From: a virus
DNA length: 64,000 nt
Virus record (IMG/VR): IMGVR_UViG_3300032220_001356
Location: 1-64,000 of that record
Direction: 5' to 3' (one strand)
Shown here one piece after another: positions 7-13,842 of this stretch. A program made the translations under genes and the position numbers. How positions within the stretch are numbered: the first letter of the stretch is position 1; each line of letters opens with the position of its first letter. Under the pieces are notes generated by a model. It saw only the letters and a list, made by a program, of their open reading frames with translations, searched no databases and had not been told where the DNA came from.

Positions 7-37
7 AGCCTCCTCTGACGAAAAGTTAGGGGAGGCT
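7..37 (+). terminator. Hairpin, probable terminator of an upstream gene
   Basis: A 13-bp stem (7-19 with 25-37, two G-U pairs) closes a GAAAA loop. No T-tract follows, so it could instead be a processing or transcript-end stabilising hairpin. It sits directly before the first early promoter and separates it from whatever lies upstream. Confidence 0.45.
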
Positions 38-44
38 CTAATTA

Positions 45-87
45 TGTAGTCCTTCTTACAGACTTCCTCTAACCTCTCTGCTATACT
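45..87 (+). promoter_or_regulatory. Early promoter copy 1 (P1)
   Basis: TGTA (45-48), 8 nt, TACA (57-60) followed by GACTT, then TATACT as -10 (82-87) exactly 21 nt after TACA. The same geometry recurs seven more times up to position 8670. The expected transcription start is about 94-95, only just upstream of the first gene. Confidence 0.8.
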
Positions 88-110
88 CTTGAAGTATGGA
101 GAAAGTAAGT

Positions 111-608: not shown

Positions 609-612
609 ATTC

Positions 613-655
613 TGTAGTCCCGCTTACAGACTTCTTCCGAGAAAGGGTATATACT
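613..655 (+). promoter_or_regulatory. Early promoter copy 2 (P2)
   Basis: TGTA-N8-TACA dyad (613-628), GACTTC, 21-nt gap, TATACT (650-655). It lies exactly 100 bp upstream of P3 in the same gap, so the ATPase gene has tandem promoters. The transcript would begin near 662 with AACATCGTCG, a leader start seen again after P4. Confidence 0.8.
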
Positions 656-712
656 CTTAAAACATCGTCGCTCTGCTGGTTCTACCCCGGCTTAGAAAGG
701 AGGACGAGATTC

Positions 713-755
713 TGTAGCCTACCTTACAGACTTCTTCCGACAGATAGGCTATACT
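713..755 (+). promoter_or_regulatory. Early promoter copy 3 (P3)
   Basis: TGTA (713-716), TACA (725-728), GACTTC, TATACT (750-755). Nearest promoter to the MoxR-like gene, leaving a leader of about 55 nt. Confidence 0.8.
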
Positions 756-817
756 TCATATGTAGCGTGAAACCTACATCGTCAATCAACATCAACGTTC
801 AATCAAGGTAATTACAA

Positions 818-1891
818 ATGGCTATTGATTTCGCTACCTTCCTCTCCATCGTCCCCTTCGTGACCGACGTTCGCAAGCCTGTTCTTATTCGCGGTCGTCA
901 CGGCATCGGTAAGTCCGAGGTCGTTTATTCCTACGCTGCTAAGGCCGGTCTGCCCGTTGTTGAGCGTCGTGCCTCGCAGATGACCGAGGGTGATCTGCTT
1001 GGTCTGCCCGATAATCGCGATTGTGAGATCGCTGGTAAGAAGGCTACTACGTGGAACGCTCCCGATTGGCTTGTGCTTGCTTGTAGCCAGCCTGTCGTCC
1101 TCTTTCTGGACGAGGTGGATCGCGCTACGACTGAGGTTCGACAGGGCATTTTTGAGTTGACCGATAGCCGCAAGATCAACGGCTGGACTCTTCACCCGGA
1201 TACGCTTATCTTCGCTGCCGTCAATGGTGGCGAGCATGGTAGTCAGTATCAGGTTGGCGAAATGGATCCGGCGGAACTTGATCGTTGGACGACGTTTGAC
1301 CTTGCTCCTACCGTAGAGGATTGGCTTGCGTGGGCGAAGGATGCCGTGGACGGCGTTATCTTCGATTTCATCAACGGCAACCGCACGCACCTTGAGCATA
1401 GCGGTGATTACGAGCCTAACAAGGTTTATCCGTCTCGTCGTTCTTGGAAGCGTCTTAACGATTGTCTCGTCAAGGGTCGTCTGCTGGATGGTGGTGCTTC
1501 GCCCGTCATTTTCAACCTCGCTGCTGCTTTCGTTGGCTTTGAGGCTGCGGTTGCGTTCAACGACTTCGTTGCCAACTATCAGCGACAGGTGACGACGGAG
1601 GATATCCTTGATAGCGGCAAGGTTTCTGCTACGAAGGACTTCGCTATCACGGACCACAACGCTCTTGCGGATAAGCTGATTCTTTCCGGTCGTTTCGCGG
1701 ACCTTTCTGTCGATGCTACGAAGAACCTCGCTGAGTATTGGATTACTCTCCCGTCTGAGGTTGCGATGAAGCTCTTCACGGAGATCGGTAAGCAGAACGT
1801 CCAGCTTTCCATTGCCTTTCACAAGACTATCACCAGCAGCGGTACTAAGGTTGGTGACCACCTTGTGAAGCTCCTTACCGGAAAAAACTGA
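818..1891 (+). CDS. MoxR-like AAA+ ATPase
   Basis: 357 aa. Walker A G-R-H-G-I-G-K-S at about residues 26-33, Walker B V-V-L-F-L-D-E-V-D-R-A at about 93-103, then an N-x-G/sensor-1-like region (F-A-A-V-N-G-G). MoxR-type ATPases act with VWA-domain partners as remodelling or chaperone pairs. Here the partner-type gene is at 8727, with the small-protein array in between. Two tandem early promoters precede it and a hairpin follows. The strong codon bias (CGT, AAG, CTT, GTC) suggests high expression or an origin unlike the AT-rich late genes; the same bias produces a long spurious ORF on the opposite strand. The target in the phage cycle is unknown. Confidence 0.85.
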   Translation: MAIDFATFLSIVPFVTDVRKPVLIRGRHGIGKSEVVYSYAAKAGLPVVERRASQMTEGDLLGLPDNRDCEIAGKKATTWNAPDWLVLACSQPVVLFLDEVDRATTEVRQGIFELTDSRKINGWTLHPDTLIFAAVNGGEHGSQYQVGEMDPAELDRWTTFDLAPTVEDWLAWAKDAVDGVIFDFINGNRTHLEHSGDYEPNKVYPSRRSWKRLNDCLVKGRLLDGGASPVIFNLAAAFVGFEAAVAFNDFVANYQRQVTTEDILDSGKVSATKDFAITDHNALADKLILSGRFADLSVDATKNLAEYWITLPSEVAMKLFTEIGKQNVQLSIAFHKTITSSGTKVGDHLVKLLTGKN

Positions 1892-1942
1892 AAGCGTTGT
1901 CCTTTGTGGACAATAATAAATAAGTAAAAAAACTGACTAACT

Positions 1943-1995
1943 AATCTCCCTTTCAACGAGTAGGAAACTACTTACTTGAAAGGGAGATTTTTTTT
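1943..1995 (+). promoter_or_regulatory. Terminator-like hairpin that buries the ribosome site of the GIY-YIG gene
   Basis: A perfect 14-bp stem (1943-1956 with 1976-1989) is followed by eight T's, so it can end transcription of the ATPase gene. Its 3' arm contains AGGGAG (1981-1986), which is also the Shine-Dalgarno of the endonuclease ATG at 1996 (9-nt gap). The loop carries ACTACTTA (1967-1974), the box seen before leaderless late genes. A transcript starting about 7 nt after the box would begin at AGGGAG and lack the hairpin. Confidence 0.65.
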
Positions 1996-2733
1996 ATGGC
2001 TTCTGAAAAAGGCGGTATTTACTTCATCATTTCGCTTATAGATAGCAAAAGATATGTTGGAAGGAGCGTAGATATAAAAAGACGTTTAAGAGAGCATAAA
2101 ACCTCGCTTATTGCCCAAAGACATAGAAATAAACACTTACAAAATGCGTGGAACAAATACGGAGCATCTAACTTTGTTTTTGCTCCATTTCTTTATTGCA
2201 ACGAGGAAGCAGCGATAATTGAGGAACAAAAGCAGTTAGATATTTTGTTTTTAGAGCCAGATAAAACATTTAACATTTCTAAAGATGCTACTATGGCTCC
2301 GTCAAATGTGCAGCATCGAAGAGCCATAAGCGAAGCAGGTAAGAAAAGAGCACCTATAACCGAAGAAACAAGAGCGAAGCTAAGAGCAGCAAGAGCGCGC
2401 AAAGTATTTACGGAGGAAGAAAGAGCTAAAATATCAGCAGCCAGCAAAGGACGTACTCATACGGAAGAAACAAGGAAGAAACTAAGCGAAAAGGCAAAAG
2501 GAAGGAAACTATCAGAAGAACACAAGAAGAAGATAAGCGAAGGTGGAAAAGGCAGGGTTGTATCTGACGAAACGAAGAGAAAGATAGCACAAAAGGCTAC
2601 CGGAAGAAAAGCATCGGAAGAAACAAGAAAAAAGCTTTCCGAGTCTCATAAAGGAAAGCCAATTTCAGAGAACGCGAAAAAACATTGGTTCAAGAAGAAG
2701 AATAAAGACGCTGAAGAAAAGGCAGTTAGTTAA
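1996..2733 (+). CDS. GIY-YIG homing endonuclease with NUMOD3 repeats
   Basis: 245 aa. An N-terminal GIY-YIG nuclease domain (G-G-I-Y-F-I at about 6-11; K-R-Y-V-G-R-S at about 18-24; conserved R-R and N-K-Y-G downstream; E near 75) is followed by at least five NUMOD3-type units of the form S-E-E-T-x-x-K-x-S-x-x-x-x-G-R that bind DNA in homing enzymes. It is AT-rich and AGA/AAA-coded, unlike the ATPase before it, which fits a mobile insertion. It is free-standing; I found no group I intron core around it. Confidence 0.92.
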   Translation: MASEKGGIYFIISLIDSKRYVGRSVDIKRRLREHKTSLIAQRHRNKHLQNAWNKYGASNFVFAPFLYCNEEAAIIEEQKQLDILFLEPDKTFNISKDATMAPSNVQHRRAISEAGKKRAPITEETRAKLRAARARKVFTEEERAKISAASKGRTHTEETRKKLSEKAKGRKLSEEHKKKISEGGKGRVVSDETKRKIAQKATGRKASEETRKKLSESHKGKPISENAKKHWFKKKNKDAEEKAVS

Positions 2734-2886
2734 GCCTATTTTGTTCGCTTCAGTTTGTCCATAAGATATCCCTAACACGAAGTCAAAAGTGTTTGTCAAG
2801 CTAAACATAAAAACTATTACAACTTTTTTCTTCTGCCGTCCTTCTGCCGTTCCATCACCGACTCCAGCAACCTCCGCAGGATGCCC

Positions 2887-3054
2887 GCTAAGGCCACTCA
2901 GAAGCCCGTGGAGGCACGCGGAGGGTAAGGGCACGGGTAAGGCAGGTGTCCGAGGTCGAACGGCTCATAAGCGTTCCTAGAGGGGGTAGAAGCGATGCGA
3001 GGATTCGTTTAACTATTTTATACACTTAGCTACCCCCTTGATCATCGTAGAGGT
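2887..3054 (+). repeat. Diverged tandem repeat, copy A
   Basis: Starts GCTAAGGCCACTCAGAAGC and ends CATCGTAGAGGT. It shares with copy B the GGAGGGTAAGGG core, the CGAGGTC segment and a terminal C5 run followed by CATCGTAGAGGT. A 9-bp inverted repeat (AGGGGGTAG with CTACCCCCT) closes its 3' half. Confidence 0.55.
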
Positions 3055-3191
3055 GTCCGTGCCGCTATGATGTAGTGCTGGTGCCTGTCAAGGACTTAAA
3101 GGAAGAAAATGTAAACCAAACTACACTTTCTATGCCGACGCTAACCCGTCCTTCATCGAAGGGTAGAGCAGGCTATCCCATATACTTCAAC

Positions 3192-3349
3192 GCTAAGGCT
3201 ACTCAGAAGCGTTATGAGCCACGAGGAGGGTAAGGGTAAGGGTCCGATAGGGTTACGAGGTCCGTCGAGCCTATAAACGACGGGGCGAAGGCTGGTCATA
3301 AATGCAGGTTATAACTGGCAAATTATGCCCCCTTTTTCATCGTAGAGGT
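3192..3349 (+). repeat. Diverged tandem repeat, copy B
   Basis: Starts GCTAAGGCTACTCAGAAGC, about 305 bp after the start of copy A, and ends CATCGTAGAGGT. The closing stem here is GGGGC/GCCCC followed by T5, so the two units keep a 3' hairpin with different sequences, which hints at selection for structure. Confidence 0.55.
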
Positions 3350-3428
3350 TCCTCAATAGTTACGACAGCTTATACCATAACCTCTTGAATCACGCATGGT
3401 AGGCCCATCGTAGAAGGAAGTGAAGAAG

Positions 3429-3471
3429 TGTAGTCCAGCTTACAGACTTCTCTACGCTGGTCGTGTATACT
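3429..3471 (+). promoter_or_regulatory. Early promoter copy 4 (P4)
   Basis: TGTA (3429-3432), TACA (3441-3444), GACTTC, TATACT (3466-3471). The leader begins near AACATCGTCG as after P2 and leads to the gene at 3510. Confidence 0.8.
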
Positions 3472-3509
3472 TCTTAAACATCGTCGTTAACCCTTAATAA
3501 AGGTCAAAC

Positions 3510-4184
3510 ATGGCTTATTTTCGTCCTCGTTACTATCAGACCCGTGGCGGTCCTACTACGCTAAATTATGAGCGTTCAACCTCTCGTCCTGTTGATGTTG
3601 CGGAAACGGCTCGTATTGAGGCTGTTATCAATAGTCCGCATTACAGCAGCCTTCCTCAGAATAAGCAGGATTTCATCAAGTCTATTAAGGAGCAAGCAGG
3701 TTCTAAGGGACTTTCTGATGCTCAGTTGAATTATCTTGCTTCTATCGAGAAGTCTCTTGCCCCTGTCGATAATTCTTGGTTTAACGCCACGGATTCTGAA
3801 ATGGTCCGCAAGCGTGAATTCACTAAGAATTATTATGGTGCAACGGGCTATTATTCGACCATCGTGGCGAAAATGGCGGCTGATTCTGCTTTTGTCCCCG
3901 ATAAGGCTCTTTGGGACAAGATGTGGGAAAACAAGTTCATTAATGCACGTTATAAGCGTTTTATTGACGGACATACACTTAACATCGGTGATATCGCTAT
4001 CGGCAAGTTTTCGTATGGCGGGCCTCACAACGGCATTATTCAAGATGTTACCTACAATTACTTTGATGGTCGTTGGCAATATACGTTTCTTACTTTTGAG
4101 GGTCATACCATGACTTTTAAGGACTCCGAGGTCAAGCCTGCCGAAAAGAAGGCTCGCAAGCCTCGTTCTAAGAAGGTGAAGTAA
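3510..4184 (+). CDS. Unknown early protein with C-terminal SH3-like domain
   Basis: 224 aa. The first 150 residues are helical and polar with no family I recognise. Residues of about 153-205 read L-N-I-G-D-I-A-I-G ... H-N-G-I-I-Q-D-V ... W-Q-Y-T-F-L-T-F, the same SH3-like pattern as the small array proteins, so this looks like a larger protein that shares their module. The tail is Lys/Arg-rich. P4 lies 38 bp upstream, and the stop overlaps the next ATG (TAATG). Confidence 0.75.
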   Translation: MAYFRPRYYQTRGGPTTLNYERSTSRPVDVAETARIEAVINSPHYSSLPQNKQDFIKSIKEQAGSKGLSDAQLNYLASIEKSLAPVDNSWFNATDSEMVRKREFTKNYYGATGYYSTIVAKMAADSAFVPDKALWDKMWENKFINARYKRFIDGHTLNIGDIAIGKFSYGGPHNGIIQDVTYNYFDGRWQYTFLTFEGHTMTFKDSEVKPAEKKARKPRSKKVK

Positions 4185-4360
4185 TGCAGTTTAATGTTGG
4201 TGAAATCGTCAAGGTTTATAGCACCTTTGACTTCTCCGAGGTCGCTGCTGTAATTGTGGAGGTTAAAGGCAAGAATTTGCGCGTTAAATACCTTGATAGG
4301 ATGGACGAAGCAGCACTATGGTACATGGACGACGAAGTTATCGAGGAAGAAACTGGATAA
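4184..4360 (+). CDS. SH3-like small protein (array member)
   Basis: 58 aa, starting M-Q-F-N-V-G-E-I-V-K-V with an acidic tail. Translationally coupled to 3510 through TAATG. Its opening and strand pattern (A-A-V-I-V-E-V ... L-R-V-K-Y-L-D) match the array downstream. Function unknown. Confidence 0.7.
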   Translation: MQFNVGEIVKVYSTFDFSEVAAVIVEVKGKNLRVKYLDRMDEAALWYMDDEVIEEETG

Positions 4361-4388
4361 CTCAGCATTTTCAGCCTAAGCAGGAAGT

Positions 4389-4431
4389 CGTAAGGAAGCT
4401 TACAGACTTCTATACGTGTTTGCTCTATACT
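4389..4431 (+). promoter_or_regulatory. Early promoter copy 5 (P5)
   Basis: CGTA (4389-4392, one mismatch to TGTA), TACA (4401-4404), GACTTC, TATACT (4426-4431). It serves the GTG-initiated gene at 4457. Confidence 0.75.
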
Positions 4432-4456
4432 TATTCTTCAACGTGGAGAGTGTTTA

Positions 4457-4816
4457 GTGTTTAACAAGACTTGTATTCATTGTGAAGTTTCCTTCGATGC
4501 TTCCTCCCGTCGAAAGCGGGATATTGGCGGCAAGATTAACGAGTGTCCCGATTGCGTTGAAGAGTTCGGCCTTGAAACTGCTGTTCCCTATGCTGGTGTG
4601 CAGGCTGGCGATGGAAAGGGAGTTGGATGCACGATTGTTGCTTTCAATACCGAAAAGGATAGGGAGCAGTACGTCAAGGCTTGGAGGGCCAATAGCGGTC
4701 AAAACGTAGGTAAGTCCTGTCAGATTGGTCGTGGCACCATTGCAATGACGGGTATGAAGTTCAAGAAGGTTGGTGAGAGTGGTTCTATCGGCACTAATCA
4801 TAAGGGACGGATGTAA
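4457..4816 (+). CDS. Zinc-ribbon-like small protein
   Basis: 119 aa. Two cysteine pairs, C-I-H-C near residue 6 and C-P-D-C near residue 33, suggest a zinc ribbon. The remainder is glycine-rich and basic (about 45-119), with no catalytic motif I know. The GTG start is supported by GGAG at 4445-4448 with an 8-nt gap. It belongs to the group with CGT/AAG codon use. A nucleic-acid-binding role is possible but inferred only from the zinc ribbon. Confidence 0.7.
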   Translation: MFNKTCIHCEVSFDASSRRKRDIGGKINECPDCVEEFGLETAVPYAGVQAGDGKGVGCTIVAFNTEKDREQYVKAWRANSGQNVGKSCQIGRGTIAMTGMKFKKVGESGSIGTNHKGRM

Positions 4817-4819
4817 TGC

Positions 4820-5017
4820 ATGAAAAACACTTTCAAGGTTGGCGATCTTGTGCAAATCCAAGGCTATGGCAACACTATCTTCGTTGTTACCAACACATAC
4901 ACCAATCTTGGTGGGTGGGGGCCAAATTCCTCTCAATTTTGTAATATTCAAGATATGAACTTTATTGTTTATTTGCCAAACAATAGAAAGGTTCGGGAAG
5001 TAAGGAAGGTGTCGTAA
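4820..5017 (+). CDS. SH3-like small protein (array member)
   Basis: 65 aa, M-K-N-T-F-K-V-G-D-L-V-Q-I, then two beta-like segments and a basic tail. Its stop overlaps the next ATG (TAATG). From here codon use shifts to the AT-rich style, so array members differ in composition from the flanking ATPase and VWA genes. Confidence 0.7.
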   Translation: MKNTFKVGDLVQIQGYGNTIFVVTNTYTNLGGWGPNSSQFCNIQDMNFIVYLPNNRKVREVRKVS

Positions 5018-5310
5018 TGACAAAAACCAAATTTGATATTGGAAGTCTCGTTAAAGCTTCAAGTCGTCTTAATATCTGTCCTGCTACCTCTTTTCATGTG
5101 TGGCCTAAGCAAGATAAAATCGAATACTTTCCTACAAGATATCGAAGAATCACTCCACAACAGCGTAATACTTTGCTTCGCAAGGATGTAGGCGTAGTAA
5201 CACGTATTGAAAAGCTTGGAAGCAACGACACTTTTCTATATCAAGTTAGGTTCTTGCAAACAGGACTTGACCTTGTTTTGCATGAAAGGCAATTGAAATG
5301 GGCAAAGTAG
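5017..5310 (+). CDS. SH3-like protein (array member, longer version)
   Basis: 97 aa, M-T-K-T-K-F-D-I-G-S-L-V-K-A; the usual G-D is G-S here. A 40-residue insert with basic residues precedes the second conserved stretch (G-V-V-T-R-I-E ... Y-Q-V-R-F-L). It overlaps the next gene by 13 bp. Confidence 0.65.
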   Translation: MTKTKFDIGSLVKASSRLNICPATSFHVWPKQDKIEYFPTRYRRITPQQRNTLLRKDVGVVTRIEKLGSNDTFLYQVRFLQTGLDLVLHERQLKWAK

Positions 5311-5588
5311 AAATAGGAGATATGGTAGAATTAACCGACTTTAGCAAAGAATATCACATTAAATATGCTTTTTCTGCTTGGAAAAGTATAAACGAGAATA
5401 AGTTAGGTTTCAATGGCAATGTTCCCGAAGATTCCTCAGAATACAAGGAGTGGTTTAGCAAGCTTTGCAATTCCATTGGTTATGTTGTAGATACAAAGCA
5501 GATTAATGTAAAGTGGGCAAAAGTTAGGTTTATGTGTTGCGAGGAGCCTTTTTGGCTTCAAGCAAAACACTTGAAGAAATGCAGGTAG
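5298..5588 (+). CDS. SH3-like protein (array member, longer version)
   Basis: 96 aa, M-G-K-V-E-I-G-D-M-V-E-L, an aromatic-rich insert, then G-Y-V-V-D-T-K ... K-W-A-K-V-R-F and a C-x-x-C-like end. It begins inside the previous gene, so translation is probably coupled. Confidence 0.65.
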   Translation: MGKVEIGDMVELTDFSKEYHIKYAFSAWKSINENKLGFNGNVPEDSSEYKEWFSKLCNSIGYVVDTKQINVKWAKVRFMCCEEPFWLQAKHLKKCR

Positions 5589-5591
5589 AAC

Positions 5592-5714
5592 GTGTCTTAT
5601 CAAGATAATTATTATAATGGCTATGGAGGCAAAATGGTTAATTTCTTTGCTGGTTTTTTCGTCCTTTTCTTTGCTGTTTTTTATAACCTTGGTCTTGCGT
5701 ACAAAACGCGATAA
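5592..5714 (+). CDS. Possible tiny membrane protein
   Basis: 40 aa from GTG 5592, or 26 aa from ATG 5634, which has GGAGG at 5625-5629. The C-terminal half is one hydrophobic segment (F-F-A-G-F-F-V-L-F-F-A-V-F-Y) followed by K-T-R. It occupies a gap that a different frame can also read as a hydrophobic extension of the next gene, so only one can be real. I favour this frame because of its ribosome site. Confidence 0.35.
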   Translation: MSYQDNYYNGYGGKMVNFFAGFFVLFFAVFYNLGLAYKTR

Positions 5715-5724
5715 ACAAGTCAAC

Positions 5725-5928
5725 ATGGACATTGGCATAGGCGATATTGTAAGATGGAAGCACAGCTATCGCGAAAACGAGTGGCTTGGTGGATTAGTCG
5801 TTGGCTTTGATGAACAAAGAATAAGCTACACAATTCAACCTTTCCATAGTGCAAATAGCAGAATAACATTACTTGCTGAAACATACGGCGAATATTGGTT
5901 CAAGATTGATAAGAGTTTTCTAAAATAA
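5725..5928 (+). CDS. SH3-like small protein (array member)
   Basis: 67 aa, M-D-I-G-I-G-D-I-V-R-W, ending E-Y-W-F-K-I-D. An upstream ATG at 5617 would add a 36-residue hydrophobic N-terminus but has no ribosome site, and no other array member has one, so I start at 5725. If 5617 were used, the product would be a membrane-anchored version. Confidence 0.65.
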   Translation: MDIGIGDIVRWKHSYRENEWLGGLVVGFDEQRISYTIQPFHSANSRITLLAETYGEYWFKIDKSFLK

Positions 5929-5946
5929 ACCAAATTGAGATAATTG

Positions 5947-6150
5947 ATGATACAAGTTGGAGATTTAGTCAAATATACAAAATACCTTGGCGACCTAACC
6001 GAATTTGGGATGGTCATAGAGAAAAACAAAACAAAGAAAACATCAGAGCAACCAACGGAATACATATGTGTTATGATGTTTTCAAGAACGTACACAAACG
6101 TCAGTCTTTCAGTCGAGGATGAAGGAAAGACTTGGTTCAAGATAGAATAG
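5947..6150 (+). CDS. SH3-like small protein (array member)
   Basis: 67 aa, M-I-Q-V-G-D-L-V-K-Y, then F-G-M-V-I-E and a C-terminal K-T-W-F-K-I-E much like the ending of the preceding gene, which suggests recent duplication of this pair. Confidence 0.7.
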   Translation: MIQVGDLVKYTKYLGDLTEFGMVIEKNKTKKTSEQPTEYICVMMFSRTYTNVSLSVEDEGKTWFKIE

Positions 6151-6168
6151 CAACTTTATAGGTGATTT

Positions 6169-6369
6169 ATGATTAAGGTTGGAGACATTGTTTGTTTTAT
6201 GAATATGCATTATGGAGTTATTAGCTCCATTGATGACGAGGAATACCTTTACTATGTGGATTGGATTAGCGACCCGACGCACGAAGAAGTGAGCAAAAGG
6301 AAGTTTCTACGGGAAGAATACTACGGCACAACGTGGACAAGGGCAGTCAAAGTTCAAGATTCGCCCTAA
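6169..6369 (+). CDS. SH3-like small protein (array member)
   Basis: 66 aa, M-I-K-V-G-D-I-V-C-F, then Y-G-V-I-S-S-I and Y-Y-V-D-W. AGGTGA lies 6 nt before the ATG. A T8 run follows the stop, perhaps a weak transcription end before P6. Confidence 0.7.
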   Translation: MIKVGDIVCFMNMHYGVISSIDDEEYLYYVDWISDPTHEEVSKRKFLREEYYGTTWTRAVKVQDSP

Positions 6370-6391
6370 TTTTTTTTCCTTCCATCCACTT

Positions 6392-6434
6392 TGTAAGACT
6401 TATTACAGACTTTCTATAGCCTCCATGCTATAAT
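6392..6434 (+). promoter_or_regulatory. Early promoter copy 6 (P6), probably giving a leaderless mRNA
   Basis: TGTA (6392-6395), TACA (6404-6407), GACTT, -10 TATAAT (6429-6434). The next ATG is at 6441, exactly where transcription should begin, and no Shine-Dalgarno precedes it. Confidence 0.75.
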
Positions 6435-6440
6435 GCTTAC

Positions 6441-6632
6441 ATGCTTGAGATAAAGATAGGTACAATCGTTAAACCACATAACACTAACACAAACAAACTT
6501 GGTATTGTTGTGGATGTTCAATATGACGATAGAAAGTGTGTAAAGCAAGTGCTTATCCATTGGTACGATAAAGAAAAGCCCGATGGATACAAAATGTGGG
6601 AATTCTACAACTATTTCGCAAAGGTATCATAA
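6441..6632 (+). CDS. SH3-like small protein (array member)
   Basis: 63 aa, M-L-E-I-K-I-G-T-I-V-K-P, then L-G-I-V-V-D-V and Q-V-L-I-H-W-Y-D. First gene after P6, with its ATG at the predicted transcription start, so translation may be leaderless. Its stop overlaps the next ATG. Confidence 0.7.
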   Translation: MLEIKIGTIVKPHNTNTNKLGIVVDVQYDDRKCVKQVLIHWYDKEKPDGYKMWEFYNYFAKVS

Positions 6633-6808
6633 TGTTCAAGGTTGGCGATATCGTCACCTTTAAGCTATTCAGCAATAACTATGCAGGATATGTGTTGGCA
6701 ATTGATGTTCGCTATAACACAAACGATACATGGTGCAATGTGTTATGGTTTGATAATGGTACATCGAATTGGACACCTCAACATGCTTTGCGAAAGATGG
6801 AGGATTAA
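6632..6808 (+). CDS. SH3-like small protein (array member)
   Basis: 58 aa, M-F-K-V-G-D-I-V-T-F, then A-G-Y-V-L-A-I-D-V and C-N-V-L-W-F-D-N-G, a textbook version of the array consensus. The start is fixed by the TAATG overlap rather than an in-frame ATG at 6596. Confidence 0.75.
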   Translation: MFKVGDIVTFKLFSNNYAGYVLAIDVRYNTNDTWCNVLWFDNGTSNWTPQHALRKMED

Positions 6809-6810
6809 AC

Positions 6811-7005
6811 ATGGACAAGTTTAATGTTGGAGACATTGTTAAACTCAAAAAGGTTAAAAACGCTATCTTTCAATATGACGAGGATACGTATGGTGTTATC
6901 TTGAACACAATTGCAATGCCACTTGAAGTTGAATATGTGGTGAAGTGGTTTGATAATGGTGCTGTTGGTCGTTTTAATGAATACCTTTTGGTGAAGGCAC
7001 AATAG
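6811..7005 (+). CDS. SH3-like small protein (array member)
   Basis: 64 aa, M-D-K-F-N-V-G-D-I-V-K-L, then Y-G-V-I-L-N-T and V-V-K-W-F-D-N-G. GGAGG at 6799-6803 sits 7 nt before the ATG. Confidence 0.75.
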   Translation: MDKFNVGDIVKLKKVKNAIFQYDEDTYGVILNTIAMPLEVEYVVKWFDNGAVGRFNEYLLVKAQ

Positions 7006-7007
7006 AC

Positions 7008-7190
7008 ATGGGCAAGTTTAATGTTGGTGATATTGTCAAGTCAGCAAAGAAATTGCCACCTGTTTATGGTGTGATTATTCATTGTTATTTTGGTTGGTAC
7101 AAAGTGCTTTGGTTTGACGAAGAAATAGAAAAAGAAAACTATAATCATGAATACCCTGCTCATTTCTTAGAAAGGGTATCCGATGTTTAA
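7008..7190 (+). CDS. SH3-like small protein (array member)
   Basis: 60 aa, M-G-K-F-N-V-G-D-I-V-K-S, then Y-G-V-I-I-H and Y-K-V-L-W-F-D-E and a Y-P-A-x-F ending. Closest relative of the next gene (shared E/Q-K-E-N-Y and Y-P-A motifs). Overlaps it by 8 bp. Confidence 0.75.
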   Translation: MGKFNVGDIVKSAKKLPPVYGVIIHCYFGWYKVLWFDEEIEKENYNHEYPAHFLERVSDV

Positions 7191-7377
7191 GGTTGGAGAT
7201 ATCGTCAAACATAAACTCAGCAATGTTCATGGTGTTATTATTAAATGTGACAACATTGTTGGTGAAAACTATAAAGTGCTTTGGTTTGACGAGAATATCC
7301 AAAAGGAAAACTATGACATATCATATCCTGCTTCTTTTATGATTTATTATATAGAAAAGGTGTCCGACGATGTTTAA
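7183..7377 (+). CDS. SH3-like small protein (array member)
   Basis: 64 aa, M-F-K-V-G-D-I-V-K-H, H-G-V-I-I-K, Y-K-V-L-W-F-D-E, K-E-N-Y-D, Y-P-A-S-F. Clear tandem duplicate of 7008. The next gene starts inside its last codons. Confidence 0.75.
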   Translation: MFKVGDIVKHKLSNVHGVIIKCDNIVGENYKVLWFDENIQKENYDISYPASFMIYYIEKVSDDV

Positions 7378-7588
7378 GATTGGAGATATGATAAGGCATG
7401 TAAATGAACACGTTTATGGTTTTATCATTGATACAGGATATGCCCAAACAAACATCAATGGATGGAAACCAAAAGGTGATGATGGTTTGCGTTATAAAGT
7501 CCAATGGTTTGAGAGCGAAGATAAATATTGGTCAAACCACAGATGGGTCACGCATAGGGAAATTGAGAGAGCAGAATATAATGTTTGA
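7370..7588 (+). CDS. SH3-like small protein (array member)
   Basis: 72 aa, M-F-K-I-G-D-M-I-R-H, Y-G-F-I-I-D-T-G, a 15-residue loop insert, then Y-K-V-Q-W-F-E. Overlaps both neighbours by 8 bp. Confidence 0.75.
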   Translation: MFKIGDMIRHVNEHVYGFIIDTGYAQTNINGWKPKGDDGLRYKVQWFESEDKYWSNHRWVTHREIERAEYNV

Positions 7589-7775
7589 GATAGGAGATAT
7601 TGTAAGACAGAAGCAAATGATGGAAAAGGTTTATTATGCTCTTATCATTGATATCAAACACAACCAACATGATATGTCCTTATCTCGCATTACTGCTCAA
7701 TGGATTAATTGGCATGGAGAGATAGTAATACTTACTCAAAGAGAAGCCAAAATATGGTGGGAGAAAGTAAGTTAA
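7581..7775 (+). CDS. SH3-like small protein (array member)
   Basis: 64 aa, M-F-E-I-G-D-I-V-R-Q, A-L-I-I-D-I-K, then N-W-H-G-E ... T-Q-R-E-A-K-I-W-W-E-K-V. The ending is shared with the gene at 8116 (T-Y-R-E-A-Q-L-W-W-D-K-V), so these two form a subfamily. Confidence 0.75.
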   Translation: MFEIGDIVRQKQMMEKVYYALIIDIKHNQHDMSLSRITAQWINWHGEIVILTQREAKIWWEKVS

Positions 7776-7942
7776 TGTTTAATGTAGGAGATATTGTAAA
7801 GTATAGGTATGAGAGGTATTATATCAGATATGGATATGTTATTGATGTAAACCAACAAGAGCAAGAGTTTAAGGTGCAATGGTTTGATGGAGAAACATTG
7901 TGGTATCTACCGGGCTCGTTAATGAAAGTGAGATTAAAGTAA
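7775..7942 (+). CDS. SH3-like small protein (array member)
   Basis: 55 aa, M-F-N-V-G-D-I-V-K-Y, Y-G-Y-V-I-D-V, F-K-V-Q-W-F-D-G, L-W-Y-L-P. The start is set by the TAATG overlap with 7581. Same subfamily as 7955. Confidence 0.75.
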   Translation: MFNVGDIVKYRYERYYIRYGYVIDVNQQEQEFKVQWFDGETLWYLPGSLMKVRLK

Positions 7943-7954
7943 AGTGGAGAGATA

Positions 7955-8101
7955 ATGTTTAACATTGGAGATATTGTAATGCATAGGTTTCATCATAGTT
8001 ATGGTTATGTTATTTGCACAACCTATAAAGGAAATAAGATTCAATGGTTCAATGGGAATATGAATTGGCATTTGCCATATGTTCTAAATAAGGTGGATTA
8101 A
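7955..8101 (+). CDS. SH3-like small protein (array member, shortest)
   Basis: 48 aa, M-F-N-I-G-D-I-V-M-H, Y-G-Y-V-I-C, N-K-I-Q-W-F-N-G, N-W-H-L-P. GGAGA at 7945-7949 precedes the ATG at good spacing. At 48 residues it defines the minimal unit of the family. Confidence 0.7.
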   Translation: MFNIGDIVMHRFHHSYGYVICTTYKGNKIQWFNGNMNWHLPYVLNKVD

Positions 8102-8115
8102 AGTGGAGTCTGATG

Positions 8116-8319
8116 ATGTTTAAAGCAGGAGACATTGTAAGGTTAAAGAGCAAGACAGCATCGGGAAAGACTGACCTATATGCTTTTGTTACTTATATAC
8201 AGCATAATCCTCCACAACCTCTTTCTTATGTCAAGATTCAAGGACTTAATTTTAATTGGCATGGAGGTTCAATGCTTACTTATCGTGAGGCTCAATTGTG
8301 GTGGGATAAAGTGGAGTAA
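8116..8319 (+). CDS. SH3-like small protein (array member)
   Basis: 67 aa, M-F-K-A-G-D-I-V-R-L, A-F-V-T-Y-I, N-W-H-G-G, then the R-E-A-x-L-W-W-D-K-V end shared with 7581. ATG 8116 is preferred to 8113 because GGAG (8105-8108) fits it better. Confidence 0.7.
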   Translation: MFKAGDIVRLKSKTASGKTDLYAFVTYIQHNPPQPLSYVKIQGLNFNWHGGSMLTYREAQLWWDKVE

Positions 8320-8489
8320 TGTGGAGTATTGTGGCGAGTGGTTGTTATTGCTTGTATGATATGCAAATGCATAACAACTTCGTTAGCTGTAATGCTTGTT
8401 TTGTTAAGGGGTTTTGTTTTGCGAGTGTTGGGTGGGTGTATTTAGCACCAACTCACAAGTATCATATAATTAGTATCAAGTATCGATAA
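8319..8489 (+). CDS. Possible small Cys/aromatic-rich protein
   Basis: 56 codons from an ATG overlapping the previous stop (TAATG). It has four cysteines and a hydrophobic centre and does not match the array consensus. It may be a decayed array copy or not a gene; only the coupling and the open frame support it. Confidence 0.3.
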   Translation: MWSIVASGCYCLYDMQMHNNFVSCNACFVKGFCFASVGWVYLAPTHKYHIISIKYR

Positions 8490-8538
8490 ATTCCATGTAT
8501 CAACGCAAAAAAATGAAACTTTTTTGTATTGCGAGTTT

Positions 8539-8581
8539 TGTAGTTTCGCTTACAGACTTAAACGAGAACCTATGCTATTCT
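8539..8581 (+). promoter_or_regulatory. Early promoter copy 7 (P7)
   Basis: TGTA (8539-8542), TACA (8551-8554), GACTT, -10 TATTCT (8576-8581). It lies 89 bp upstream of P8. The gap from 8490 to 8726 otherwise holds no gene apart from a possible 13-codon minigene at 8590. Confidence 0.7.
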
Positions 8582-8627
8582 ACTAAAACGATGATGCCTC
8601 CTATGCTTTATAGAGTCCTGTCAGTTC

Positions 8628-8670
8628 TGTAGTCCTCTTTACAGACTTCTCCAGACCCTTATGGTATGAT
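8628..8670 (+). promoter_or_regulatory. Early promoter copy 8 (P8)
   Basis: TGTA (8628-8631), TACA (8640-8643), GACTTC, -10 TATGAT (8665-8670). It drives the VWA/metallopeptidase gene. As with the ATPase gene, this gene has two tandem copies. Confidence 0.78.
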
Positions 8671-8726
8671 GCTCTCGTAGCGTAGAACCTTGATCGATAA
8701 ACCCTCAAGCAAAAGGTAACTATCAA

Positions 8727-9938
8727 ATGGCTTTCGATCTCAACCTTCACGTTTATCGTCTCCTTCAGGCTGAGCCTTTCTATGCGGCTATCTCGCGTCG
8801 TGTGAATAAGGCTCCTTCTTCCGCTATTCCTACGGCGGGTGTTCGCATTGATAAGGAAACCAAGCAGTTTGAGATGCTCTATAATCCGACGTTCTTTGAG
8901 GGTCTTTCCGATCCCGAAAAGACTGCCGTTCTTCGTCATGAGTTTGACCATCTTTGCTTTGACCATGTTACGGGTCGTTTGCCTGCCGAGGGTATGACCA
9001 AGACTTGGAACATTGCAACGGACCTTGCTATCAATTCGCATATCCCGAATATCCCTAAGATTGCTTGTATTCCCGGCGAAGGTCCGTTTGCCCACTTGGA
9101 GAAGGGCAAGGCTGCTGAATTCTACTTCGATGAATTGCGTAAGATGCAGGAGCAGAAGCAGCAAGAGCAGGACAAGAAGAAGGGTGACAAGAGTGGGAAG
9201 GGCGAAGGCCAGCCGTCTGATGGTGATGGTTTGCCCGACACTTTCGATGACCACAGCGGTTGGTCTGAGCAGGATGGTGATGTAGACAATACTACCAATG
9301 AGATTGCAAAGGAGCGTCTTAAGGAAGCAATCAAGCAAGCTGCCGAGGAGTGCTCCAAGTCTAACAATTGGGGTTCTGTGTCTGCCGAGCAGCGCAAGCG
9401 AATCATGGAGTCCCTCCAGACTTCTGTTGATTGGCGGAAGATGCTGCGTTATTTCGTGAAGGTTTCTCAGCGTTGTGACAAGTCCTCTACGGTACGTCGC
9501 ATTAACAAGCGTTTCCCTCGCATCCATGCTGGCAAGAAGGTTAATCGAATTGCCAAGATTGCAATTAGCATTGATCAGTCTGGTTCTGTTTCCGATTCTA
9601 TGCTTGCTTTGTTCTTCTCTGAGCTTAACAACCTTGCTGGCATTGCAACCTTTACCGTAGTTCCTTTCGACACCGAGGTCAAGGACAAGCTTGTGTATGA
9701 GTGGAAGAAGGGCACCAAGAAGGATTGGGAGCGTGTGATGTGTGGTGGTACGGACTTCAATGCTCCTACCAAGTGGGTTAACAAGCATGGTGAATTCGAT
9801 GCTCACATTATCCTTACCGATATGTGTGCTCCTAAGCCTGTTCCTTCCAACGTTCCTCGTATGTGGATGACCGATAAGGAGAACGCTCGCAACCCTTACT
9901 TCAAGACCAATGAGATTATTGTTGCGGTTGGTAAGTGA
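8727..9938 (+). CDS. DUF2201-type metallopeptidase-like/VWA-like protein, MoxR partner
   Basis: 403 aa. H-E-F-D-H at 71-75 (zincin-type) and A-T-D-L-A-I-N near 97-103 form the N-terminal putative metallopeptidase domain. A Lys/Glu/Asp-rich low-complexity linker covers about 137-195. The C-terminal domain starts near 275 with I-A-I-S-I-D-Q-S-G-S-V, the MIDAS metal site of VWA domains, followed by a conserved F-D-T-E and G-G-T-D-F. Proteins of this layout are encoded beside MoxR-type ATPases. Here the ATPase is 6.8 kb upstream with matching codon bias and the same promoter type, so I infer a pair split by the array. Confidence 0.85.
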   Translation: MAFDLNLHVYRLLQAEPFYAAISRRVNKAPSSAIPTAGVRIDKETKQFEMLYNPTFFEGLSDPEKTAVLRHEFDHLCFDHVTGRLPAEGMTKTWNIATDLAINSHIPNIPKIACIPGEGPFAHLEKGKAAEFYFDELRKMQEQKQQEQDKKKGDKSGKGEGQPSDGDGLPDTFDDHSGWSEQDGDVDNTTNEIAKERLKEAIKQAAEECSKSNNWGSVSAEQRKRIMESLQTSVDWRKMLRYFVKVSQRCDKSSTVRRINKRFPRIHAGKKVNRIAKIAISIDQSGSVSDSMLALFFSELNNLAGIATFTVVPFDTEVKDKLVYEWKKGTKKDWERVMCGGTDFNAPTKWVNKHGEFDAHIILTDMCAPKPVPSNVPRMWMTDKENARNPYFKTNEIIVAVGK

Positions 9939-9943
9939 TTAAT

Positions 9944-10252
9944 ATGAATAGCCAAAAGAATTGGGCAGTTGGAGCTAACATGACAAGCGCATACAAGAAG
10001 AAGTTGGTTAGCGATGGTCCTCTAATTCAAGTGGGAGATATTGTAGCTCCTTATAAGTATTACAGAAATGGTCGTCCTGTTCCAGCACACAAGTTCAATT
10101 ACATTGCTGGTTCTGTTGGCGTTGTAATTGATGAACATCAGAACAAGGTTTATGATGAAGCAACATTGGTAGTTATGTGGAACGGAGATAGTAATCATAC
10201 CACAAACTACATCAAGTCTCAAGCTGCTGGTTTTCTCGTAAAGCTTTCTTAA
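9944..10252 (+). CDS. SH3-like protein (array member with N-terminal extension)
   Basis: 102 aa from ATG 9944; a GTG at 9935 overlapping the previous stop is the alternative. About 27 polar residues precede I-Q-V-G-D-I-V-A-P, then G-S-V-G-V-V-I-D-E and L-V-V-M-W-N-G. It follows the VWA gene directly and probably shares its transcript. Confidence 0.7.
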   Translation: MNSQKNWAVGANMTSAYKKKLVSDGPLIQVGDIVAPYKYYRNGRPVPAHKFNYIAGSVGVVIDEHQNKVYDEATLVVMWNGDSNHTTNYIKSQAAGFLVKLS

Positions 10253-10269
10253 TTAACAAAGGAGATAAC

Positions 10270-10452
10270 ATGACTTTCAAGATTGGTGATATGGTTCGTG
10301 AGTCTAAGTATCGTGATATTGGTCGAGTTCTTTCTGTGCCTAGCGATAATCAAGATTACTACATCGTTTCTTTCGATGGTACAAAGATGCGTTATAGTGA
10401 AGAGCAAGTTGTTAGCGGTGCTTTGCGTCGTCTTTATCCTGTTACACCTTGA
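10270..10452 (+). CDS. SH3-like small protein (last of the main array)
   Basis: 60 aa, M-T-F-K-I-G-D-M-V-R-E, I-G-R-V-L-S-V, Y-I-V-S-F-D-G. AAGGAG at 10258-10263 gives a strong ribosome site. Last gene before the composition change. Confidence 0.72.
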   Translation: MTFKIGDMVRESKYRDIGRVLSVPSDNQDYYIVSFDGTKMRYSEEQVVSGALRRLYPVTP

Positions 10453-10500
10453 TATGTGTTAGATACAAACATAATACATATTAAAGTTATTTAGGTAGCA

Positions 10501-10535
10501 AGGGGGGTACTCCCCCCTCCCCCCTCCCTCCCCCC
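10501..10535 (-). repeat. C-tract / G-quadruplex-forming motif
   Basis: The + strand has C runs of 6, 6, 3 and 6 (10512-10517, 10519-10524, 10526-10528, 10530-10535) separated by single T's. The - strand therefore carries four G runs with 1-nt loops, an ideal parallel quadruplex. AGGGGGG (10501-10507) can also pair with the first C run plus T over a 4-nt loop. Confidence 0.7.
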
Positions 10536-10562
10536 ACGGAATGTATGTCCCATATGGCTTGG

Positions 10563-10598
10563 GTGTGTTATATTGCGCTTAGCGCTTAAACGACACAC
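10563..10598. repeat. Nested inverted repeat
   Basis: GTGTGT (10563-10568) pairs with ACACAC (10593-10598) around an inner GCGC-TTA-GCGC hairpin (10575-10585). With the neighbouring C-tract this makes a structured 100-bp stretch in a 250-bp gap with no gene. An origin, terminator or insulating site is possible. Confidence 0.4.
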
Positions 10599-10686
10599 AC
10601 AGAAAATTTCCAAAACTTTTTAAAGGGCTATAAAAAACTCCCAATTCAAAAAAATCCTATAGAAAATTGCAGGACTTTTTAACCAA

Positions 10687-10696
10687 ACTACTTATA
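10687..10696 (+). promoter_or_regulatory. Candidate late box ACTACTTATA
   Basis: It lies just before ATG 10699/10702, which has no Shine-Dalgarno. The spacing places the ATG at the expected transcript start. Confidence 0.45.
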
Positions 10697-10701
10697 TCAT
10701 G

Positions 10702-11142
10702 ATGAAACTAATAATGGAAAGTTGGAGGTCTTATTTAAAAGAAGCAGTTTCTTTTAATGAAGCAACCAATAATTGGTTCTATACAACACTTGATAACTCT
10801 GACGTTCCTCAACACATCCTTGGCGTATTGGAAGAAAGGGCAATTGAGGTTTATTCTTCATGTTCTTATAAAGGGGATTGTGGAGAGAACTCTCATAGAT
10901 GGATAAAAATTTTTGAAGACGCTGGAATTAACGTTCAACAAGTTGTTGGAAACTATGTTTCTCCAAATGACAAATGGTATGATAGCATTGTAAAAGGAGA
11001 GGTTGATGCTCCAATGTCGTCTGACCATGTTTGGTTATTGATTGATAATAATGTTTTGTTTGACCCAACGGCAGGACAATTTCAAACTAACATTTCTATT
11101 GAAGGCTATCTTGCAGAAGATGGAAAACCGTTGTATATTTAA
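10702..11142 (+). CDS. Tagged protein with transglutaminase/papain-like Cys-His-Asp core
   Basis: 146 aa (147 from ATG 10699). The N-terminal tag M-K-L-I-M-E-S-W-R-S-Y-L-K-E followed by A matches the capsid-targeting-like tags in this region. The body has G-D-C-G-E-N-S-H near 53-60, then D-H-V-W-L-L-I near 109-115 and F-D-P-T-A-G-Q-F near 121-128: a Cys...His...Asp order typical of transglutaminase- or papain-like proteases and deamidases. Inferred to be an internal-head protein acting on a host protein. A catalytic role is plausible; the substrate is unknown. Confidence 0.65.
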   Translation: MKLIMESWRSYLKEAVSFNEATNNWFYTTLDNSDVPQHILGVLEERAIEVYSSCSYKGDCGENSHRWIKIFEDAGINVQQVVGNYVSPNDKWYDSIVKGEVDAPMSSDHVWLLIDNNVLFDPTAGQFQTNISIEGYLAEDGKPLYI

Positions 11143-11150
11143 TTAAATAA

Positions 11151-11160
11151 ACTACTTATA
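11151..11160 (+). promoter_or_regulatory. Candidate late box ACTACTTATA
   Basis: Identical to the box at 10687. The ATG at 11166 follows without a Shine-Dalgarno. Confidence 0.45.
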
Positions 11161-11165
11161 ACATA

Positions 11166-12257
11166 ATGAAACTGATATTAGAAAACTGGAAAAGATACAC
11201 TCATGCAATTCTCAACGAGGATTTGCTTATTGAATCATATGAAGACGCTTATGAAACAATAAAGAAAAGAAGTGCCAAACTATTAAAAGGTTGGGCTTAC
11301 GATAAATCGCCAGATAGATATAATCAAATTGAAAAAAATATTCAAGATGCAATACTTGATAAGTTGGGAAGCAATCCCTCACAAGAAGAAATAAATAAAT
11401 ATACAAATGCTTGGGAGTTGGGCGGAATCGTTATTGCAAACATGATAAACGATAAGATTATTCCAAACGACATTACAGATAAACAAAAAAGTATTGCGTT
11501 ATTGTGGAATTATAAGCAACTTGTAAAAAATTCAATCGTAGATTTAGATTCTTTCTTAAACATGATTGTTGAGTACCTTGCGGCACATGGTTATGACATT
11601 TTCTTAAATTTCTCTGGTAGGCATCTTGATATTCCAGAGCTAAGAGCAAATTTCAATTTGAGCTTTGCTTATGCTTACTTGGCAGATGATCCACAATCTT
11701 CTGAGTCTGATATAAGAAGAGCAAAATTGATTGAAAACTTTTTTCATTGGAATAGATTTGTTGAGGAAGGAAAAAAGGATTTAAATTCCGTTTCTAGTTA
11801 CAATGAACTTATTGAACTTGTAAAAGAAGCAAAACCTTTATTTCAAGCTTGGCAAGAAAGACAAGAACAAGCAGATGCAGATAAGGGCAAAGAAGTTTTA
11901 TTGGATGATAAGAACTGGCAAATAATCGTTATTCATAATAAGGGTGCTGCTTGTCAATTGGGCAAAGGAACCGATTGGTGTACCGCTGCTCCCGGTCTTG
12001 ATTATTTCAAGCAATATTATAAACCCGATGACCCATTGTTTTATATTCTTGATAAAAGCGATGGAGAACGTTATCAATTCCACTTTGGAACTCAACAATT
12101 CATGGACAAAGATGATTATAATCTTTATCCTTCTCGTTATCATGTTGGGGATGAAATAATGTCTGTTCTTGCAAAAGTTGTTCCTGCAAAATATGATATT
12201 GCAAGAAGTTACCTAAACAACGTCTTTTATAATGGGCATATCCGAAGGTTCATGTGA
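11166..12257 (+). CDS. Tagged protein of unknown function with W-C-T-A motif
   Basis: 363 aa. The tag M-K-L-I-L-E-N-W-K-R-Y-T-H-A-I-L-N-E ends in an L-x-E site. The helical middle (30-240) is charged. The C-terminal third carries C-Q-L-G-K-G-T-D-W-C-T-A, then L-F-Y-I-L-D-K, Y-Q-F-H-F-G and Q-F-M-D-K-D-D, a motif set I associate with phage proteins of unknown function. Invariant-looking Cys, Trp and His suggest an enzyme or metal site. It ends in a TGATG overlap with the next tagged gene, so the two are coupled. Confidence 0.6.
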   Translation: MKLILENWKRYTHAILNEDLLIESYEDAYETIKKRSAKLLKGWAYDKSPDRYNQIEKNIQDAILDKLGSNPSQEEINKYTNAWELGGIVIANMINDKIIPNDITDKQKSIALLWNYKQLVKNSIVDLDSFLNMIVEYLAAHGYDIFLNFSGRHLDIPELRANFNLSFAYAYLADDPQSSESDIRRAKLIENFFHWNRFVEEGKKDLNSVSSYNELIELVKEAKPLFQAWQERQEQADADKGKEVLLDDKNWQIIVIHNKGAACQLGKGTDWCTAAPGLDYFKQYYKPDDPLFYILDKSDGERYQFHFGTQQFMDKDDYNLYPSRYHVGDEIMSVLAKVVPAKYDIARSYLNNVFYNGHIRRFM

Positions 12258-12886
12258 TGAAAATTTTATTGGAAAATTGGCGAGGCTTTCTTAATGAAAG
12301 TCTTTTATTGAAACCGGGACCAGATGGTTGGGAAAAATATTCGCAATTGGTTGGCAAGGCTTATTTGGCTGCTCCCAAGTTTGAGGCAAGAGCCGTTCCT
12401 CACTTTCAAGCAATGATACCATTTATTGAAAAAATGTTCAAGCGCATTTCATCAAAAGTTGATATTCAGTTTGTCGATTATCATGCATATGAAAATGCTC
12501 AACAATTAAAGAACGATGTTAAGCAAAATGGCATTATGAAGATTGCAACCATTGATGCTCAACATGATGTATTTGATGAATTGACAAATGCAAAGTTTCG
12601 TGCAATCCATGATTATATGTCTCATATTCAAGCAATTGGTTCAAGAGGAACAGAATTCTCATTGATTGGAGAACTTCAATCTTATAATGTTCACTTGAAA
12701 ACTCTTCCTCCAAAAGCAGTCCCTGCCCTATTCACAGAGATAGTTGGACAAGTATCTGCTTATTATGTAGGTGGTGGAAAATTTGCAGAACAAAAAATTT
12801 GCTTATTGGATGGTTTTGATTATTACAATATTGGAAAGGTCGAAGGCTACGATATTGTGAATAAAACATTGGTTGAAAAGGTTTAA
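12257..12886 (+). CDS. Tagged protein of unknown function
   Basis: 209 aa from ATG 12257 (GTG 12254 is an alternative). Tag M-K-I-L-L-E-N-W-R-G-F-L-N-E followed by S. The body includes A-I-H-D-Y-M-S-H and a C-terminal F-T-E-I-V-G-Q-V-S-A-Y-Y ... F-A-E-Q-K-I ... Y-D-I stretch that looks conserved-phage-like but has no function I can name. Located between two other tagged genes and followed by a terminator. Confidence 0.6.
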   Translation: MKILLENWRGFLNESLLLKPGPDGWEKYSQLVGKAYLAAPKFEARAVPHFQAMIPFIEKMFKRISSKVDIQFVDYHAYENAQQLKNDVKQNGIMKIATIDAQHDVFDELTNAKFRAIHDYMSHIQAIGSRGTEFSLIGELQSYNVHLKTLPPKAVPALFTEIVGQVSAYYVGGGKFAEQKICLLDGFDYYNIGKVEGYDIVNKTLVEKV

Positions 12887-12905
12887 TATTATTTTATTTG
12901 CTCAA

Positions 12906-12937
12906 AAAAAACCCCGGAAGAAATTCTGGGGTTTTTT
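12906..12937 (+). terminator. Rho-independent terminator
   Basis: AAACCCC and GGGGTTT arms with inner GAA/TTC pairing, then T6. It ends the run of genes from 10702. Confidence 0.8.
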
Positions 12938-12947
12938 ACTATTTATA
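12938..12947 (+). promoter_or_regulatory. Candidate late box ACTATTTATA
   Basis: It directly follows the terminator and is 2 nt before ATG 12950, which lacks a Shine-Dalgarno. Confidence 0.5.
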
Positions 12948-12949
12948 AT

Positions 12950-13834: not shown

Positions 13835-13842
13835 AGGCATAA

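Follow-up and report, generated by a model that had tools for sequence, protein, structure and literature searches.

Tandem small SH3-like proteins around a MoxR ATPase locus of large phages known from metagenomes

Why would a phage carry some nineteen tiny, similar genes in a row, and how is such a row kept in order while its members change? The question is raised by the left end of a marine phage, the IMG/VR virus record IMGVR_UViG_3300032220_001356, of which bases 1-64000 were analyzed (the window; the full record is 90,725 bases). An original prediction, made from the letters alone, had placed about 19 small paralogous genes of one SH3-like fold between positions 4184 and 10452. We found that these array units form one small SH3-like family and do not share a mere motif, that neighboring units are often joined by DNA coding on both sides, and that whole units are gained and lost at these joints among related phages. 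On balance, the row seems fairly likely to be an array of gene cassettes, each encoding a single-domain SH3-barrel protein, and to serve as a reshuffled set of binders that would most likely be host-directed.

One family of small SH3-like barrels

All of the genes named in the original prediction were real open reading frames (ORFs) on the + strand. A regular expression for the start motif matched 22 ORFs on the + strand and none on the - strand in the first 16 kb, and it also gave one unrelated internal match at 49238-50560. A family profile was then started from the window copies and iterated over 81 loci of other phages, which were reached via the MoxR ATPase gene (818-1891) and the vWA gene (8727-9938) of the window. 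The ATPase had 243 relatives in IMG/VR, and the 80 kept were 61-71% identical to it. Relatives were collected through MoxR, and through the joint DNA described below, because a locus search with one unit gave no match. The profile converged on 964 ORFs in the 81 loci with none on the opposite strand, and reversed decoys gave no matches. The family was present in 80 of the 81 loci, with up to 33 copies each, so the metagenome search proposed for it shows a family spread over many phages.

A second profile, from which all window sequences had been taken out, was tested on the window ORFs and recovered 19 of the 19 listed small genes (E 4.5e-13 to 0.0031). Its best false match in the window was E 0.013, on the - strand. 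On the profile alone, therefore, membership of the weakest units (4184 and 5017, followed by 5725 and 7581) is marginal. Similarity confined to the start motif had been named as what would count against a common family; the window-free matches extend past that motif, with no decoys. The units are listed below with their window-free profile E values, followed by the core genes and the outlying genes that bear the start motif.

4184-4360, + strand: unit 1; 1-nt overlap with the stop of 3510-4184, joint AAGGTGAAGTAATG; E 0.0031
4820-5017, + strand: unit 2; E 4.5e-6
5017-5310, + strand: unit 3; long insertion after the first strand; 1-nt overlap with unit 2, AAGGTGTCGTAATG; E 0.0015
5298-5588, + strand: unit 4; long insertion; 13-nt overlap with unit 3; E 4.8e-5
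5725-5928, + strand: unit 5; E 2.6e-4
5947-6150, + strand: unit 6; E 9.3e-9
6169-6369, + strand: unit 7; E 1.3e-6
6441-6632, + strand: unit 8; E 6.2e-7
6632-6808, + strand: unit 9; structure predicted with AlphaFold2; joint AAAGGTATCATAATG with unit 8; E 4.5e-13
6811-7005, + strand: unit 10; E 2.6e-8
7008-7190, + strand: unit 11; 57% identity to unit 12 (paralogue E 9e-17); E 6.8e-9
7183-7377, + strand: unit 12; 8-nt dual-coding overlap with unit 11 at 7183-7190; weak YccV-like/HspQ match; E 2.8e-11
7370-7588, + strand: unit 13; 8-nt overlap with unit 12 at 7370-7377; E 2.6e-10
7581-7775, + strand: unit 14; 8-nt overlap with unit 13 at 7581-7588; paralogue of 8116 (E 5e-13); E 2.6e-4
7775-7942, + strand: unit 15; 1-nt TAATG overlap with unit 14; paralogue of 7955; E 5.9e-12
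7955-8101, + strand: unit 16; E 5.9e-9
8116-8319, + strand: unit 17; E 1.7e-4
9944-10252, + strand: unit 18; N-terminal extension; E 3.4e-6
10270-10452, + strand: unit 19; E 5.8e-7
818-1891, + strand: MoxR-type AAA+ ATPase, core gene amid the arrays; Pfam AAA_5 2.4e-7
3510-4184, + strand: conserved core protein with a predicted helical N-terminal domain and C-terminal SH3-like barrel; AlphaFold2 and Foldseek
8727-9938, + strand: metallopeptidase-vWA protein with an HEFDH motif, partner of the MoxR ATPase; Pfam DUF2201_N 1.2e-16, DUF2201 5.1e-15
111-608, + strand (ORF from 96): longer protein with an N-terminal VGD start motif; E 0.046, motif only
15686-15952, + strand: outlying start-motif gene of uncertain membership; E 0.028, two homologues only

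As had been claimed, the closest paralogues are 7008/7183, 7581/8116 (42% identity) and 7775/7955 (46% identity).

The fold of a single array unit, 6632-6808, was predicted with AlphaFold2 from 102 sequences. The model is a five-strand barrel (mean predicted local distance difference test score, pLDDT, 92.1; predicted template-modeling score, pTM, 0.75) with strands at residues 7-10, 18-27, 32-39, 45-49 and 53-55. Its nearest solved folds by Foldseek were CAP-Gly, Tudor, PWWP, KOW (NusG, Spt5), CarD/CdnL and the UvrD/PcrA tudor domain, at template-modeling (TM) scores of 0.6-0.81 and E 0.01-0.08, with none below E 0.01. Given the five strands of this model, we are confident that the array units would fold as SH3-like barrels. 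The neighboring protein 3510-4184 was not detected by the family profile. Its AlphaFold2 model (pLDDT 88, mostly above 90 in the C-terminal strands) nevertheless shows a predicted C-terminal barrel of the same kind at residues of about 155-211. The five strands (162-165, 173-183, 188-195, 200-204 and 208-210) are spaced as in 6632-6808, and the nearest solved folds by Foldseek are Tudor/PWWP domains. The two predicted folds thus agree, as a structure check of the proposed single fold would have it. The protein is conserved beside MoxR, with 62 profile matches in the loci.

It had also been proposed that further copies occur as domains elsewhere. This was borne out by the predicted structure for the C-terminus of 3510-4184, whereas 111-608 and 15686-15952 carry the start motif only by these tests. 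Two orthologues of 111-608 were found, in the related loci L007 and L008, and the L007 orthologue matches the family (7.9e-6). Longer proteins with CCHC-like zinc fingers and a VGS start motif were noted at L007 4172-4921 and L010 4405-5328, and a 138-residue ORF at L021 6522-6938 contains two family domains, an apparent in-frame fusion of units.

The constant framework of the units reads M-K/F-V-G-D-L/I-V, G-I-V and V-x-W, and no single Pfam or PHROG family accounts for the array: any one model matches at most 1 (Pfam) or 4 (PHROG) of 102 members. Three candidate families were considered and rejected. For YccV-like/HspQ (PF08755), one of the 102 members matched at E<0.01, and only 7183-7377 lay above the cut-off (23.3 versus 22.8 bits) over profile positions 2-31 of 101, a span of 30 residues in one unit. 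KOW (PF00467) likewise matched one of the 102 members (E 0.002), and the best DUF2158 (PF09926) score was 16.3 bits, below the cut-off of 22.3. All three are small SH3-like barrels like the array units, and YccV-like and DUF2158 have part of the units' start or V-x-W-F stretch; each matches at most one of the 102 members, and only partially. Against solved structures, the family profile matched NusG chains (E 0.002-0.005) as well as SPT5 KOW domains and uL24.

Joints between units and turnover of whole units

The 853 neighboring unit pairs measured in the relatives overlap by 1-20 nt in 406 cases and by exactly 14 nt in 329. The joint is TTGGAGGTGATCARTGAAAGTCGGTGA, with the consensus TTGGAGGTGATCA(R)TGAAAGTCGGTGA. 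In the upstream frame the joint region is read as L-E-V-I-S/N-E-S-R-stop, and in the downstream frame as ATG/GTG-AAA-GTC-GGT-GA.., which gives M-K-V-G-D. A GGAGGT within the LEV codons fits a ribosome-binding site for the downstream gene. Because this GGAGGT and the next start both lie inside LEVxxESR, the conserved C-terminus is, to a large degree at least, the next gene's start signal; LEVxxESR as a protein motif was therefore set aside as better explained by this DNA, though it may also have a role in the protein. Within the loci, the 14-mer was matched at 972 distinct positions in the forward orientation, 955 of which open a family-like ORF, and at 3 in reverse.

The branch formed by the window and L008 repeats a different joint, AAGGTnTCnTAATG, which reads K-V-S-stop together with an ATG. 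The window joint GATGTTTAA encodes D-V-stop and M-F-K at 7183 and 7370, and the similar ATATGTTTGA is found at 7581. These joints follow the same logic as the joint of the relatives. The original prediction missed both the dual-coding joint and the MoxR/metallopeptidase-vWA core described below.

We then compared similar or near-identical phages for insertions and deletions (indels) of 90-2500 bases with clean breakpoints, which gave 28 distinct events. In 14 of these, both breakpoints fell at member starts, against a random expectation of 3.3%, and sizes such as 176, 148, 145, 181, 330, 196, 670 and 694 equaled start-to-start distances to the base. These results show gain or loss of entire units in the relatives, with both breakpoints at joints, and they fit recombination at the joint, which may be the mechanism. 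They also bear out the proposal of amplification by local duplication, as whole-gene duplication and loss were both seen. In several other indels, the breakpoints had 21-81 bases of promoter-like DNA (TTGACA...TATAAT) in common. The proposal that the units lie under shared early promoters was not borne out in the window, where promoter-like sites were not enriched (45 versus 44.4 +/- 6.6 in shuffles); support in the relatives was limited to this breakpoint homology and to operon heads, which were preceded by sigma-70-like promoter pairs in 14.5% of cases versus 1.5% at random.

In integron gene-cassette arrays, exchangeable units stand in a row under a shared promoter and are linked by a repeated joint. 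The array resembles them in its exchangeable rows and its repeated joint; here, however, the joint codes on both sides. In the shuffling by promoter early stem-loops (PeSLs) of T4-type phages, short repeated regulatory DNA is likewise proposed to shuffle early genes (cited in PMC4503421). The indels that break in shared TTGACA...TATAAT DNA are a further likeness, whereas most breakpoints here lie in a coding joint and the units belong to one protein family. Modular exchange of small phage genes is thus already known. In the sources searched, we came across no coding joint that combines the roles of stop, start, ribosome site and apparent exchange point within a single hypervariable family of barrels.

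With the members clustered at 50% identity, 1,748 unique members fell into 1,073 clusters and their rarefaction was near-linear with the loci sampled, so the repertoire is open. Columns of the framework hardly vary, whereas the two main loops approach maximal entropy (about 4.1 bits) and loop insertions reach 26 aa. It had been suggested that the ratio of nonsynonymous to synonymous substitution rates (dN/dS) might exceed 1 at surface sites. This did not hold: across 176 orthologue pairs the pooled ratio was 0.18 (0.085 for the MoxR gene), 2 of the 176 pairs exceeded 1, and values were 0.17-0.23 in loops and 0.16 in strands. The orthologues are under purifying selection, and positive (diversifying) selection was rejected, with no loop class above 0.23. 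The net charge of members was centered on 0 with a wide spread, which would not favor general nucleic-acid binding.

Core genes amid the arrays and the phages that carry them

The arrays are physically linked to a MoxR machine. A MoxR ATPase was encoded in 19 of the 20 records found by joint DNA alone, a metallopeptidase-vWA protein in 26 of the 27 array-bearing records, and units stood on both sides of MoxR in all 26 loci with full flanks. The vWA gene usually begins about 319 bases after MoxR (median, relatives). Units separate the two genes in the window, L007 and L008, where the distance is 4.5-6.8 kb (6.8 kb in the window). The domains AAA_5, DUF2201_N and DUF2201 agree with the definition of the MoxR/metallopeptidase-vWA pair. 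Such a pair is known from group 2.2 jumbo phages, where the part of the report consulted proposes a role in virion assembly (PMC7824862). The jumbo phage pair has the same domains as here, AAA_5 with DUF2201_N/DUF2201. In that part of the report no small-barrel array is mentioned around it, whereas the present pair is embedded in one (PMC7824862).

The phage lineage that carries the arrays comprises large phages known only from metagenomes. The DNA of 1-17000 gave no match to cultured phages, single-unit and consensus protein searches of cultured phages gave nothing significant, and the joint DNA gave chance-level matches only in the cultured-phage collection. A longer form of the joint pattern was encountered in at least 120 stretches of IMG/VR but in only 3 contigs among 84,980 genomes. 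These contigs (L206, L207 and L208, the last being PBOB01000020.1) are short, bear arrays, on both strands in L208, and sit in metagenome bins of different bacterial groups; they are probably phage. No account of such arrays was found in the open-access literature.

Other features of the window were noted beside the array. Within it, the product of 4457-4816 is a protein of 119 residues that contains cysteine; it has 12 other matches in the relatives but none in Pfam. A GIY-YIG homing endonuclease with NUMOD3 motifs (1996-2733) lies between MoxR and the array. Along window 1-12000 the G+C content falls from about 0.50 at the left end to reach 0.30-0.33 past 12 kb, and the core genes beside the array thus differ in composition from the remainder of the window. 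Further on, consecutive unrelated proteins (10699-11142, 11166-12257, 12254-12886, 12950-13834, 14335-14607 and 15959-16357) have a common short N-terminal leader in the variants MKLIMESWRSYLKE, MKLILENWKRYTH, MKILLENWRGFLNE, MKLLLENFRNYINE and MKLTESxLRxxxxEELxxVL; this leader may serve in packaging or targeting and be cleaved off.

What the units may do

In the relatives, the 3' end of a unit holds the ribosome-binding site and, in 329 pairs, the next unit's first 14 nt. Under the favored reading of a reshuffled binder set, the joint itself would be a recombination site acting through short repeated homology and would also couple translation, and any unit could be lost, duplicated or exchanged with the operon left intact. 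The products would be binding proteins, most likely against host proteins in takeover or counter-defense; each target would be kept for some time while the set per phage would change quickly. The MoxR ATPase, the metallopeptidase-vWA protein and the barrel-bearing 3510-type protein, placed amid the arrays, would be the machine served. The units are probably aimed at host proteins, and from their linkage they may possibly be adaptors of this machine.

Several observations weigh against this reading. Purifying selection acts between orthologues, with no residue-level sign of an ongoing arms race, and the neutral mean charge and the fold similarity single out no ligand. As the units all start with similar DNA, joint-to-joint breakpoints would result from the gain or loss of a whole gene by any mechanism, if kept by selection; they are no proof of microhomology recombination. 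In the window the joints span a mere 1 or 8 nt, and gaps of 2-18 nt separate several of the units. In addition, a near-identical relative of the window was not found, and turnover was seen in the relatives only.

A tentative alternative, which we regard as possible, is that the units are exchangeable adaptors: each barrel would dock on the MoxR/metallopeptidase-vWA machine or the barrel-bearing 3510-type protein and deliver a different protein, of the host or the virion, to be unfolded or cleaved. The near-constant presence of MoxR (19 of 20) and peptidase-vWA (26 of 27) in array phages, some of them found independently of either gene, speaks for it, as do the arrays on both sides of the pair and the conserved neighbor 3510-4184 with its barrel of the same kind. 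One unit also resembles HspQ/YccV, of which the E. coli member is a Lon regulator, although that similarity covers just 30 residues. The linkage may instead reflect the common ancestry of a single phage lineage, searches of the cultured-phage collection gave no close family members, and for MoxR/peptidase-vWA pairs in other phages virion assembly is what the consulted part of the report proposes (PMC7824862).

The two ideas can be combined, though we consider the combination doubtful: the array would be an evolvable phage binder library in which the 14-nt sequence serves as stop, start, coupling signal and exchange point, and the products would be interchangeable specificity subunits that direct the MoxR/metallopeptidase-vWA machine to different host proteins.

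A role of the units as KOW- or Tudor-type nucleic-acid binders that act on host or phage transcription or translation is unlikely. The best solved-structure profile matches do include NusG, SPT5 KOW domains and uL24, Foldseek gives NusG, Spt5, CarD and the UvrD/PcrA tudor domain, and some longer proteins pair zinc-knuckle-like fingers with the start motif. However, the structural neighbors span nearly every SH3-like family at E 0.01-0.08 with none favored, net charge lies around 0 with its wide spread, and the loops vary too much to form a single conserved site for RNA or DNA.

That recombination produced the array largely as something neutral or selfish, with joints duplicating units of which most do little, is quite improbable. 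An open repertoire and frequent whole-unit gain and loss would fit such a product, and laboratory plaques of cyanophage S-PM2 were larger where a small-gene 'ORFanage' had been lost (PMC4503421), yet purifying selection is clear (dN/dS 0.18 versus 0.085 for MoxR) and most units keep intact frames and ribosome sites. That these are ordinary unrelated small early phage genes with a common start motif only can hardly be credited: pairwise identity is often 20-30% beyond the first ten residues, but the profile matches cover the domain without decoys and the fold is predicted with high confidence.

The family of the array units is large, with more than 1,700 distinct members in the loci fetched, and lies outside any one Pfam or PHROG model. 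Small phage genes that come and go are usually taken only as unexplained variation, whereas this array has a readable grammar of a fixed framework, free loops and an order-keeping joint. This grammar makes it testable how phages quickly turn over host-interaction genes, and also what phage MoxR/peptidase-vWA pairs act on.

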